Notes under the pieces: generated by a model | What the model saw: only the letters and a program-made list of their open reading frames with translations | What the model was told of the DNA's origin: nothing | The model's database searches: none | Shown here: positions 8,674 through 23,584 of the stretch, one piece after another | How the letters are laid out: each line of letters begins with the position of its first letter | Numbering within the stretch: the first letter of the stretch is position 1 | Translations under genes and position numbers: made by a program | From: a virus | IMG/VR virus record: IMGVR_UViG_3300009537_000162 | Span: 1-24,923 of that record | DNA: 24,923 nucleotides | Strand: one strand, 5' to 3'

Positions 8674-9021
8674 TCATCTAAAATATGAAGCGCCGTGTTT
8701 GCGTCTCTGATCTTCAGAGTTGACCTTGCGCCCCTCCGGGTGCGTCCTGTTGTAAATGCCTTGAACCAGTCCTGGCTCGGGAACCCCATTCTCATTGAGG
8801 ATCTCCCTGCGCTGACGTTGATAAATATGTTCCTCAAAGAGGATAGGGTCATTGCCTTTAATGCCCCGTTCCTTGCCGGTTTCAGGGTCAATGGATCTGG
8901 CGTGGGCACGTAACAACTGATCTGCCAACTGCTCCTTCTCCCTGTCAGTGTACTCCCGCTCCTCATCGAATTCAAGAAGGTTGTTCTTATCATACGAGGG
9001 GCGGCGCTTCCATCCGGGCAC
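8674..9021 (-). CDS. Hypothetical protein, 115 residues
   Basis: This is an unrecognised, very hydrophilic protein rich in Glu, Arg, Lys and Asn; the central part (YTDREKEQLADQLLRAHARS) is helical and there are no cysteines or membrane segments. The start is GTG at 9021, which shares one base with the TAG of the upstream sigma-like gene and has a good GAGGTGA seven to eight bases before it. An overlapping frame of similar length (8667-8993) lacks such a start. The mix of tight coupling and strong ribosome site supports a real gene, but its function is unknown. Confidence 0.72.
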   Translation of the reverse strand: MPGWKRRPSYDKNNLLEFDEEREYTDREKEQLADQLLRAHARSIDPETGKERGIKGNDPILFEEHIYQRQRREILNENGVPEPGLVQGIYNRTHPEGRKVNSEDQRRKHGASYFR

Positions 9022-9338
9022 TATTCAATCACCTCATCGCCCCAAAGCTCTTTTACTAGCTGAATCATACTGGACTCGACATACTGTCCAACAGAAACTG
9101 TCGTAATCCCCATAATCTCGGCCACGTCCTTCTGCTTCATATCCAAAATGACGTTAAAGAAGACCGCCTCCCTTTTTCGCTTACTCAATCTCTTGAGGCT
9201 CCCCTGGAGATCAAGAAAATTAATGCGTATGCCCTTATGTTCAATATCCCATTTGCCACTTTGGCTACAAAGTGCCTCAAACACAGTGTAATTACGGAAC
9301 ACCTCACGTAAGATGCGGTGCTTAGGAAGATCGCTCAT
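9021..9338 (-). CDS. Sigma-70 region 4-like DNA-binding protein
   Basis: The 105-residue protein ends in a helix-turn-helix of the sigma-70 region 4 kind: LSKRKREAVFFNVIL (51-65), then MKQKDVAEIMGITTVSVGQY (67-86) and a last amphipathic helix. In sigma factors this domain reads the -35 box. No region 2 is present, so it cannot be a full sigma factor. It could be a transcription regulator, an appropriator of host polymerase, or a DNA-binding packaging component given its place just upstream of the terminase genes. The start is placed at ATG 9338, ten bases after the upstream stop; a longer frame starting at 9431 would overlap the HNH gene by 83 bases and has no better ribosome site. Confidence 0.65.
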   Translation of the reverse strand: MSDLPKHRILREVFRNYTVFEALCSQSGKWDIEHKGIRINFLDLQGSLKRLSKRKREAVFFNVILDMKQKDVAEIMGITTVSVGQYVESSMIQLVKELWGDEVIE

Positions 9339-9348
9339 GCTTCGCCGT

Positions 9349-9918
9349 CTATCTTTTACGGCCCTTTCCAGACCGCTTTGTAGTGCGCTTCTTGCGCTTG
9401 CGTTTATTGGTAGTTCTTCCCTTGACACCATAACGCTCTTCGCCCAGAGCCTTCACCGCAGGAGGGGTGGTTACATATTCAAGGGCAACCCTAAGTCGGT
9501 CAGCATCATCCTTCCACTTTCCGAGAGCGGTATTACATGACCAACAAAGGAGACCTCTCACCAAACCAGTTTTGTGATCGTGATCTACGCTAAGGCGAAC
9601 TGTCTTGGGTGGTCTCTTGCAGATGTAGCAGACCCCACCTTGAAATTCCAAGATGGCCTCATATTCCCGAATCGAAATCGAAAACAGCGTGGCTAGCCGA
9701 CGTGCTCGTCCGTCCTCAGCATGACACGCCTTACACCATGGGCCACGCCTTCCATCGGAGCGGATATACCACTCAGCAAGGGTCTTTTCCTGCCCGCAGC
9801 GATTGCAACGCCAAGGGCCTTCAGGTTCCGTGTTGTGATTATGTCTGCCGCATTGGCAGTCTGCGGGGCATTTACTGCTTCCGCCCCTCGTCGTCTTTCG
9901 CGGTTTCTCTTGGGTCAA
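9349..9918 (-). CDS. Endonuclease VII-like HNH protein (recombination endonuclease)
   Basis: The protein belongs to the endonuclease VII family, which cleaves Holliday junctions, branches and mismatches before packaging. The core is CYIC (97-100), SVDHDHKTGLVRGLLC (110-125) and WSCN (126-129): two zinc-binding cysteine pairs around the catalytic DHDH. Upstream are further pairs, C38/C41 and C62/C65, and an N-terminal CPADCQCGRHN (17-27) of the type seen on phage HNH proteins. The last 30 residues are Lys/Arg-rich (NKRKRKKRTTKR) and should bind DNA. The start TTG 9918 overlaps the preceding nuclease gene by 47 bases and shows no Shine-Dalgarno sequence. No better start precedes the cysteine motif, so the exact N-terminus is uncertain. 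Confidence 0.85.
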   Translation of the reverse strand: MTQEKPRKTTRGGSSKCPADCQCGRHNHNTEPEGPWRCNRCGQEKTLAEWYIRSDGRRGPWCKACHAEDGRARRLATLFSISIREYEAILEFQGGVCYICKRPPKTVRLSVDHDHKTGLVRGLLCWSCNTALGKWKDDADRLRVALEYVTTPPAVKALGEERYGVKGRTTNKRKRKKRTTKRSGKGRKR

Positions 9919-20981: not shown

Positions 20982-21572
20982 TCATTCCTCCACTACTTGC
21001 TTGATTGGGATCATTTTCACGGACGGCTGTCCGATCTGGATGTACTTCTCGAAAATTGCTTTGCTATCTGGATGATCGGCCATATGACGAGAAGCTTTAC
21101 GATCATTCAAGGTATAGACAATTTTGGTTTCCTCATCAATGAGATCAGACAGGTTCGGATTTTCCTTGACAAACTTCTCAGCATCGAAGGTCGGCGTGGG
21201 GTTTACAACTGTGCGGCCGTACTTGTACTCCCCGACCACAAACTCGTACTTCATGTAGTAATCGTCTTCTTCAATCTCGATATTGTAACCATCCTCGTCG
21301 GTCTGCACTCCAACTAGATTCCAGGTGGGGAAATTGCGGGTGCGCCAAGTCTCGAATTCATCATCGTAGGCTTCACTCATGACTTCGCGTGAAACCCTGA
21401 TCGTCTTACGAGCAAGCGGCACTTCATCGCGGACAACCTCAGAAATAAGATCAAAGATTGGCCCCTTCAACTGGTCTTTGGCTGCCTTTCCAAGCTTTTC
21501 CATAGCATCGGCCTCACGATAGGCTTCCGCCAGTTCTTCTAATTCTCTATGTGCTGTAATTTCTTCACTCAT
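20982..21572 (-). CDS. Hypothetical protein, 196 residues
   Basis: An unrecognised acidic soluble protein. Residues 1-60 are helical and probably coiled coil (HRELEELAEAYREADAMEKLGKAAKDQL). The 60-130 part is strand-rich with many Tyr and acidic residues (EEDDYYMKYEFVVGEYKYG), and a helical end follows. No cysteines or transmembrane segments are seen. ATG 21572 overlaps the SWIM gene stop by eight bases and has GAGGTG seven bases upstream. It is directly followed by the P-loop NTPase gene with one spare base, so the two are likely translated together and may form a complex; this is inference from spacing. Confidence 0.78.
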   Translation of the reverse strand: MSEEITAHRELEELAEAYREADAMEKLGKAAKDQLKGPIFDLISEVVRDEVPLARKTIRVSREVMSEAYDDEFETWRTRNFPTWNLVGVQTDEDGYNIEIEEDDYYMKYEFVVGEYKYGRTVVNPTPTFDAEKFVKENPNLSDLIDEETKIVYTLNDRKASRHMADHPDSKAIFEKYIQIGQPSVKMIPIKQVVEE

Positions 21573-21876
21573 CTTCTATCACCTCAATTATGGTCTTATC
21601 GCCACATTCCGGACAAATACGCTTCGCTTTCTGCGCGGCTGTCTGCTTCTTGCCGGTAAGCTCACTCCATGCACACACTGATGACAACGCCTCTGCTTGA
21701 TGGCGGCATCGACCTCGGAATTCATAACTAGGGCACGAACAGACGACCTCGCTGAGATCTCGATCCCAAGGGGGTAGTTGAACGACATAGACCTTGCCTT
21801 CTTCACTCGTACTCTCGATATTAATTTCTTGCCAGGTCTGACCACTGCCACATTCCTGAATTAGTCGCTCTTCCAT
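21565..21876 (-). CDS. SWIM zinc-finger protein, first gene of the leftward operon
   Basis: This 103-residue protein has a clear SWIM motif, C46-x-C48-x8-C57-x-H59, in CSCPSYEFRGRCRHQ, which binds zinc and contacts DNA or proteins. A second pair, CPEC (88-91), follows near the end. The N-terminal strands (YVVQLPPWDRD) resemble the lead-in of SWIM domains. In other organisms SWIM domains occur in transposase-, helicase- and recombination-associated proteins; the role in this phage is unknown. ATG 21876 lies seven bases after a TATAAT box and has no Shine-Dalgarno sequence, so the transcript appears leaderless. As first gene it would be the first product of the replication operon. Confidence 0.8.
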   Translation of the reverse strand: MEERLIQECGSGQTWQEINIESTSEEGKVYVVQLPPWDRDLSEVVCSCPSYEFRGRCRHQAEALSSVCAWSELTGKKQTAAQKAKRICPECGDKTIIEVIEDE

Positions 21877-21883
21877 GATTCAT

Positions 21884-21911
21884 ATTATAGCACACAACTG
21901 GGGCTTGACAA
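21884..21911 (-). promoter_or_regulatory. Leftward promoter of the replication operon
   Basis: On the minus strand TTGTCA (21911-21906), 16 bases, then TATAAT (21889-21884), preceded by TGC to give an extended -10 (TGCTATAAT). Seven bases (ATGAATC) then lead to the ATG of the SWIM gene, so the message would be leaderless or nearly so. The -35 shares five bases with the -35 of the rightward promoter. Confidence 0.75.
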
Positions 21912-21933
21912 TTTCTTAGAAACCTGCTATATT
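21905..21933 (+). promoter_or_regulatory. Rightward consensus sigma-70 promoter
   Basis: A perfect TTGACA at 21905-21910, a 17-base spacer and TATATT at 21928-21933 with TGC ahead of it (TGCTATATT). Transcription should start near 21940, giving a leader of about 30 bases that contains GAGGAG before the GTG at 21970. This is the best promoter in the window by match to the housekeeping consensus. Confidence 0.85.
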
Positions 21934-21969
21934 GTGAGTGTGAGTTCAAACCAGCGAGAGGAGATTCAG

Positions 21970-22656
21970 GTGATTACTACCACTAAGACCTACGCAGACG
22001 AGCTTCGTAACCAGCTTATCAGCGAGTATAGACTTCAACTCAACTCGCACTCAACGACCGTCGATCAGTTGGTCGAGAAGATCCAGAACGACGGCCTCAC
22101 CTACACGATGTCTTGGTCGAGCCACTTCACCGACGCTCTCAAGAACGAGATGGTGGAGCAGGCCCATACCTATATCAAGGATGAGCTTATCTCTCAGGAC
22201 GATGCCGAGATGATCCGACGACTCGACGTGATGGTCATCCAAGGAACTCACTTCGGTGTTTCGTCCACCATGGGTATTCCGCAGCGTCCGATGGAGATCA
22301 TGATCGCCATGGCTCGTGAGGAAGTTCTGGACGAGGCTAATAAGCACCTGATTATGTCCGCCGAACGTGCCCTTTCCTCGATGGTGAGGGAGAGGTTCGA
22401 GGACGATCATAAGAAGGTCGCGAATCTCAAGTCGCAGCTTAATGATCTCTTGCGACGGTACGACAGGGCGCGATCAGACACAACTCGCGAGAAGCTGCTG
22501 GGCGATATCGAATCTGCCGAGATCAGCTACAAGTCAGCAGCCAATACCCTTAAGTCGAGCATCAACACCTACGTCGAAGATCTCAAACAGCGCGAGAACC
22601 TCCCCAGGATCCTCGACACCGAGGAAGCACTCAGCTACCGCTTGCAGCAGATCTAG
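21970..22656 (+). CDS. Helical protein of unknown function, 228 residues
   Basis: First gene of the rightward unit. GTG 21970 is chosen because GAGAGGAG lies six bases upstream and because a longer in-frame GTG at 21934 would sit before the likely transcription start. The product is almost wholly helical: TKTYADELRNQLISEYRLQL at the N-terminus, a central helical part with GVSSTMGIPQRPMEIM, and a likely coiled coil near 150-200 (KKVANLKSQLNDLLRRYD). No catalytic motif, cysteine cluster or membrane segment is seen. Codons look more GC-rich in third position (CTC, GAC, ATC) than in the leftward genes, by eye only. Expressed from a consensus promoter opposite the replication operon, it may be an abundant or early product. 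Confidence 0.8.
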   Translation: MITTTKTYADELRNQLISEYRLQLNSHSTTVDQLVEKIQNDGLTYTMSWSSHFTDALKNEMVEQAHTYIKDELISQDDAEMIRRLDVMVIQGTHFGVSSTMGIPQRPMEIMIAMAREEVLDEANKHLIMSAERALSSMVRERFEDDHKKVANLKSQLNDLLRRYDRARSDTTREKLLGDIESAEISYKSAANTLKSSINTYVEDLKQRENLPRILDTEEALSYRLQQI

Positions 22657-22671
22657 AAAGGAATATATCTA

Positions 22672-22887
22672 ATGGCAATCGATCCTAAAGTTAAAGATGG
22701 CGCTCACATGGTGTATCAAGTCATCGAGAAGGTTGATGGAGAAGACTTATGGTATAATCACGGTGGCGAGTTCGATAATCTCAAGGATGCCATGAACACT
22801 ATGCTAAGAATGCAGGACACCTACAGTAAATACGGTAGGGTTTTTGATGTTCGATATAGAAGCGTCGGAGATTGGGTGATGATCTAG
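22672..22887 (+). CDS. Small hypothetical protein, 71 residues
   Basis: ATG 22672 follows the upstream stop by 15 bases, with AAAGGA about nine bases ahead. The product (MAIDPKVKDGAHMVYQVIEK ... DVRYRSVGDWVMI) has two strand-like stretches at the ends around a helix (NLKDAMNTMLRMQDTY), a simple alpha/beta layout. It has no cysteines or membrane helix and no known family that I can name. It is the last gene before the bidirectional terminator, so it shares the message of the preceding gene. Confidence 0.7.
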   Translation: MAIDPKVKDGAHMVYQVIEKVDGEDLWYNHGGEFDNLKDAMNTMLRMQDTYSKYGRVFDVRYRSVGDWVMI

Positions 22888-22940: not shown

Positions 22941-22962
22941 AGAGGGGCCGCAAGGCCCCTCT
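22941..22962. terminator. Bidirectional intrinsic terminator
   Basis: A perfect 9-bp stem AGAGGGGCC/GGCCCCTCT with a GCAA tetraloop (22950-22953). On the plus strand it is followed by ACTTTTAG, and on the minus strand by TTTTCC, so it can end both the rightward pair of genes and the leftward membrane-protein gene, whose stop codon lies five bases away. The rest of 22888-22940 shows no gene or motif. Confidence 0.88.
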
Positions 22963-22966
22963 ACTT

Positions 22967-23182
22967 TTAGGCCTCTCCGGGATCGCTACCGTATCGGATC
23001 CACTTATCAAGAGCCAATAGGAGCGGAGTCAAAACTGCTGCAACGAGCACAGCATACTCTGTTCCTACTAGTTCTGCGAAGTCCGGGCCAGCCAGCCAAC
23101 CGATTATTCCTGCAACCGCGACTGCTGCCGCTGAACGAACAGCACGAAAGAGAATCGTCTTGACCTTATCTGATAGAGCCAT
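22967..23182 (-). CDS. Small two-helix membrane protein, holin-like
   Basis: The 71-residue product starts at ATG 23182, with GGAGGG four to five bases upstream; a longer frame to 23236 would start before that site and is not preferred. A basic, helical N-terminus (MALSDKVKTILFRAVRS) leads to two hydrophobic segments, about 18-32 (AAAVAVAGIIGWLAG) and 43-59 (YAVLVAAVLTPLLLALD), and a short charged tail. Small proteins of this plan include phage holins, which form the lysis pore, but no lysin gene is nearby. It is a single-gene unit pointing left into the bidirectional terminator. A weak -10-like GATAAT lies at about 23215-23220. Membrane location is confident; holin function is a guess. Confidence 0.68.
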   Translation of the reverse strand: MALSDKVKTILFRAVRSAAAVAVAGIIGWLAGPDFAELVGTEYAVLVAAVLTPLLLALDKWIRYGSDPGEA

Positions 23183-23555: not shown

Positions 23556-23584
23556 TTAGTAGTACCGGCTGCCGGTGCTATAAT
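23556..23584 (+). promoter_or_regulatory. Reductase promoter with inverted repeat in the spacer
   Basis: TTAGTA (23556-23561), a 17-base spacer and TATAAT (23579-23584) with TGC ahead (TGCTATAAT). The spacer contains ACCGG-CTG-CCGGT (23564-23576), a 5-bp inverted repeat that could be an operator. The ribosome site AGGAGA (23609-23614) lies five bases before the reductase ATG, so the leader is about 30 bases. Confidence 0.65.

Follow-up and report, generated by a model that had tools for sequence, protein, structure and literature searches.

Back-to-back predicted promoters with overlapping -35 boxes head the replication cassette of a virus

The prokaryotic bidirectional promoters described by Warman, Grainger and colleagues in E. 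coli and Salmonella consist of one pseudo-symmetric element that RNA polymerase binds in two orientations. The binding events are mutually exclusive, and the symmetry of one core element is the cause. The locus analysed here resembles them in these respects, with exclusion expected from its geometry. However, Warman-type promoters share their -10 element and have starts 7-25 bp apart, whereas here the -35 element is shared and the predicted starts lie ~63 bp apart; with its separate -10 boxes and this distance, the locus falls outside the definition of Warman et al. The Pc/Pr promoters of the Bacillus subtilis plasmid pLS20 are, like ours, overlapping divergent promoters on a mobile element, and polymerase has been proposed to act there as a regulator itself. 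In pLS20 the -10 and -35 boxes coincide, and one promoter is weak and needs RcoLS20, whereas both promoters here are near consensus. A regulator and DNA looping make the pLS20 switch, whereas no regulator is known at the pair in our window (the window being the whole 24,923-bp IMG/VR virus record). The closest described gene order is that of Rhodococcus phage E3, whose replication cassette runs as in the window (DnaC-DnaB-primase-...-Pol III alpha-RecA-...-sigma region 4), but the annotated genes in the E3 stretch shown are all co-directional and no divergent pair heads the cassette. A literature search with strict term combinations found no earlier description of a shared -35 pair, though one may exist. 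For promoter exclusion via a shared -35 rather than a shared -10 element, the locus, which heads a phage replication cassette, would offer a clean natural case.

Both core promoters lie in the 93-bp spacer between two divergent genes (leftward ATG at 21876, rightward GTG at 21970). Their elements, the -35 boxes found by sequence reading and promoter scan, are:

21905-21911, either strand: shared heptamer TTGACAA (reverse complement TTGTCAA), which holds both -35 boxes; direct sequence reading
21905-21910, plus strand: -35 box TTGACA of the rightward promoter, 6/6
21925-21933, plus strand: extended -10 TGC-TATATT of the rightward promoter, TG at 21925, TATATT at 21928-21933, spacer 17 bp
21906-21911, minus strand: -35 box TTGTCA of the leftward promoter, 5/6
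21884-21892, minus strand: extended -10 TGC-TATAAT of the leftward promoter, TATAAT at 21889-21884, spacer 16 bp

The preliminary description had read TTGACA on the plus strand (21905-21910) and TTGTCA on the minus strand (21911-21906), and both boxes are indeed found there, with bases 21906-21910 in common. The two sites thus face outward on opposite strands and their core elements overlap. Each scores 11/12 against the sigma-70-type consensus, and recognition by the sigma-A of the host is assumed; with both strands scanned, they are the sole 11/12 sites of this type in 24.9 kb. When the 93-bp spacer was shuffled 20,000 times with dinucleotides preserved, sites of 11/12 or better appeared 35 times on the plus strand and 19 times on the minus strand, and 0 times on both together. 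The pattern ATTATA-N15-17-TTGACAA-N15-17-TATAWT is present a single time in the window and in 0/100 shuffles. Because the two -10 regions form inverted arms around the shared box (13 nt, 85% complementary), the whole element from -10 to -10 is a rough palindrome. Comparison with known RNA families and tRNA gave no match. Both sites are probably real promoters.

The nonamer TGCTATAWT of both promoters is also found before the ribonucleotide reductase gene, and the looser form TGNTATAWT occurs 5 times in the window versus 1.0 expected. This third extended -10, TGCTATAAT (23576-23584, plus strand), lies 35 nt 5' of the reductase gene (23620) and has no good -35 box. This third copy suggests that the phage makes general use of extended -10 promoters.

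On the leftward side, the expectation that replication genes lie downstream is borne out, as homologues of a DnaC-like loader, DnaB, primase, SSB, Pol III alpha and RecA all run leftward. The order is SWIM protein, two unassigned proteins, DnaC-like loader, DnaB, primase, SSB and DnaE-type Pol III alpha, followed by RecA/UvsX, a nuclease, a sigma region 4 protein and then terminase and portal genes. Among named phages, the polymerase has its best matches in actinophages, e.g. Rhodococcus E3 and Eggerthella LE2-3 (~31% identity), and an actinobacterial or similar host is therefore likely. The first gene is:

21565-21876, minus strand: SWIM zinc-finger protein, whose gene opens the leftward replication cassette; start predicted to be leaderless

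Only 7 nt separate the end of the leftward -10 from the ATG at 21876, and the usual -10-to-start distance places the predicted transcription start at 21877 or 21876, the latter being the A of the ATG. Upstream of this ATG there is an in-frame TGA two codons away and no room for a Shine-Dalgarno sequence. Because of the short distance between -10 and ATG, the leftward mRNA is probably leaderless. Leaderless mRNAs are common in some actinobacteria and make up 24% of M. smegmatis transcripts (PMC6448022).

Alignment of Pol III alpha reached two relatives, L361 (58% identical) and L362 (37% identical), which are the only two relatives that carry the SWIM gene; scans with the SWIM protein, the first rightward protein (228 aa) or DnaB as single queries gave no close relatives. 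Leaderless promoters have a -10 ending ~6-7 nt before the start codon, and the distance at the SWIM gene is 7 nt in the window, 7 nt in L361 and 6 nt in L362. The L362 gene is preceded by TTGGCA-N17-TAAAAT with TGC before the -10, the L361 gene by TGG-TAAGCT. In L361 this -10 (TAAGCT) is weak and no -35 passes the scan, so conservation there is one of position; the SWIM start of L361 is also less certain, because the frame extends upstream to a GTG that allows another start and no promoter passes the scan. The recurrence of this anatomy in both relatives supports an old and functional leftward promoter. In the L361 genome, several promoters (L467, L468, L473, L474) share TTGACAA-N16-TACTCT followed by TAG, with a -10 that differs from those of the window.

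The rightward side likewise carries the expected gene pair (21970-22656 and 22672-22887), followed by a terminator-like stem:

21956-21964, plus strand: Shine-Dalgarno-like GAGAGGAGA before the first rightward gene; direct reading
21970-22656, plus strand: first gene of the rightward pair, starting with GTG; helical protein of 228 aa for which no relatives were found
22672-22887, plus strand: second gene of the rightward pair; protein of 71 aa that belongs to no known family
22941-22962: terminator-like stem at the end of the rightward unit; the minus strand has the best T-rich tail

Transcription from the rightward promoter is predicted to start at ~21940, giving a leader of ~30 nt. The 228-aa protein matches no known family, a homologue search with it gave no relative, and its predicted structure (helical, mean pLDDT 53) is uninformative. 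Beyond the stem, a gene convergent with the pair (22967-23182, minus strand) encodes a small hydrophobic, holin-like membrane protein of 71 aa; L361 carries a homologue with 46% identity at the equivalent position.

No proteins like the rightward pair were found in the L361 or L362 records. In L361, nothing homologous to the pair lies between the SWIM gene and the conserved gene for the small membrane protein, which is accompanied by its terminator; in L362, the ORF upstream of the SWIM gene is co-directional and has a weak match to the reductase. As the closest relative lacks the gene pair, the rightward half looks lineage-specific. It may be young or dispensable, and both an insertion in the lineage of the window and a loss in L361 fit. 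The apparent absence could reflect loss in the relatives or divergence beyond detection. The relatives use promoters of the form TTGACA-N17-TANNNT, a pattern with 25 matches in the L361 and L362 records versus 4 for the reversed pattern, and a near-consensus outward partner is present at 0/25 of these promoters (best CATTAT, 4 of 6). The shared -35 pair is thus not a device common to the whole lineage.

We consider it likely that the locus is a compact back-to-back pair of host-type sigma-70/sigma-A promoters whose overlapping -35 boxes couple two outputs. The conserved leftward promoter would transcribe the replication cassette, probably as a leaderless mRNA from the AUG of the SWIM zinc-finger gene, and the rightward promoter would express a unit of two genes, probably lineage-specific, with a leader and Shine-Dalgarno sequence of its own. 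Polymerase would engage a single direction at any time and so couple the two outputs; the stronger or activated direction would lower the opposite one, and promoter strengths would set the output ratio. The pair itself is real and probably functional, and ordinary in kind.

An RNA polymerase holoenzyme covers ~75 bp. With predicted starts ~63 bp apart, two such footprints would overlap by ~45-50 bp, from which we infer, in line with the preliminary description, that two polymerases are not bound at once; given the size of the enzyme, mutual exclusion at binding is nearly forced by the geometry. Since both sites are near consensus, real competition between them is plausible, and conditions of this kind should allow steric competition to be measured. 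At five tested E. coli bidirectional promoters, steric competition was not seen at basal activity and appeared only when one direction was strongly activated, with less noise under interference (PMC12825309). The effect expected here is coupling, possibly with damping.

Among the alternatives, a regulated switch is unlikely but holds up best. In such a switch a phage or host factor would favour one direction and exclusion would repress the other, as activators do exactly at E. coli bidirectional promoters. A candidate factor is encoded in the window and in both relatives, namely the region 4 protein (9021-9431), and the spacer holds an 11-bp palindrome, TTTCTTAGAAA, at 21912-21922. However, nothing ties the region 4 protein to the shared -35 site, no repressor-like gene adjoins the promoters, and the palindrome has no second copy in the window, for which reason an operator role for it was dropped. 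The region 4 protein itself (136 aa, minus strand) contains a sigma-70 region 4 domain only (PF08281) and is possibly a phage transcription factor. Its homologues are 68% identical over the matched stretch in L361 and 42% identical in L362, and a region 4 protein is annotated at a comparable position in phage E3.

Somewhat less probable still is that the leftward promoter alone is active and the rightward match is a by-product of symmetry or weakly used. In favour of this, conservation extends to the position of the leftward promoter but not to the rightward side, and the symmetry of TTGACA readily yields spurious boxes. Yet the rightward site has a perfect -35, 17-bp spacing and an extended 5/6 -10, and it is followed by a ~30-nt leader with a Shine-Dalgarno sequence and two genes in need of a promoter.

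It is quite improbable that the shared -35 is a decision point of the phage, at which the region 4 protein or another factor reads the heptamer, so that polymerase turns from transcribing rightward to transcribing leftward. If it were true, one seven-base box would time replication against the rightward genes.

Of the interpretation in the preliminary description, the exclusion of two polymerases by overlapping near-consensus divergent promoters stands, but the two-way switch without a repressor is not supported. Exclusion alone leaves three states (empty, left, right). As these are mutually exclusive and no feedback is known here, they yield one stationary split, given by binding and clearance rates, and not two alternative states. 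Published switching needs a regulator: overlapping promoters act as a switch if a regulator affects the two sides differently, as a passage of the pLS20 paper puts it, citing Bendtsen et al. (PMC4207663), and the overlapping divergent promoters of pLS20 become a switch through RcoLS20 (PMC4207663). Evolution also speaks against it, since the leftward promoter position is kept in two relatives, whereas the closest of them lacks the rightward pair and none of the 25 TTGACA promoters of the two has a near-consensus outward partner. Hence, even with real overlap and with strong promoters of the kind at which steric competition was seen in E. coli, it is very improbable that competing polymerases alone choose between the replication genes and the rightward pair.

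The overlap of the boxes follows from the near-palindromic TTGACA(A), and it takes little for five bases to be shared. Where an A follows TTGACA, the opposite strand reads TTGTCA, a 5/6 -35 that keeps TTG, and a back-to-back partner therefore needs just a -10 at the right distance. At ordinary TTGACA promoters in sampled viral contigs the next base is A in 124/183 (68%), i.e. about two thirds of perfect TTGACA boxes there carry an opposite-strand 5/6 -35, from which a divergent promoter can arise by gaining just a -10. The arrangement is a recurring one, driven largely by symmetry, in which two outputs are coupled; that it forms a self-contained switch is unlikely.

The ATTATA-N15-17-TTGACAA-N15-17-TATAWT layout recurs in at least 120 viral contigs, some of them related, so that the counts are not fully independent, and the reversed control pattern has 75 matches over the whole viral collection. 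Inside ORFs lie 33/120 of the real layouts (among the matches listed) versus 67/75 of the reversed ones; in divergent context, 20/120 (among the matches listed) versus 0/75. The left spacer is 17 bp in 63/120 of the matches listed, which is the preferred length. For a harder control, the left -10 was displaced by 6 bp, and real and displaced layouts were compared by gene orientation among the matches listed. In the codirectional matches listed, the left promoter faces a gene in 36/59 real versus 6/38 displaced cases (Fisher p ~1e-5). This far higher share with correct spacing suggests that the opposite-strand box works elsewhere. The divergent share among the intergenic matches listed does not differ (20 real versus 16 displaced, p = 0.7), which offers no sign that divergent use as such was selected for. 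Selection on the minus-strand -35 through the seventh base was also rejected, as A follows in 84/120 of the matches listed (70%) versus 68% of ordinary promoters.

A stricter pattern with both TGC extensions matched 11 bacterial genome contigs. These matches are mixed, in that several overlap predicted ORFs and two only lie between divergent ORFs; they show recurrence of the sequence, not function. In one of them, from a Saccharibacteria assembly (L485:5816-5866), the shared -35 layout lies between divergent genes, one like a tRNA-dihydrouridine synthase (by eye) and one like a membrane protein, and the leftward -10, that of the synthase-like gene, lies six bases before the ATG.
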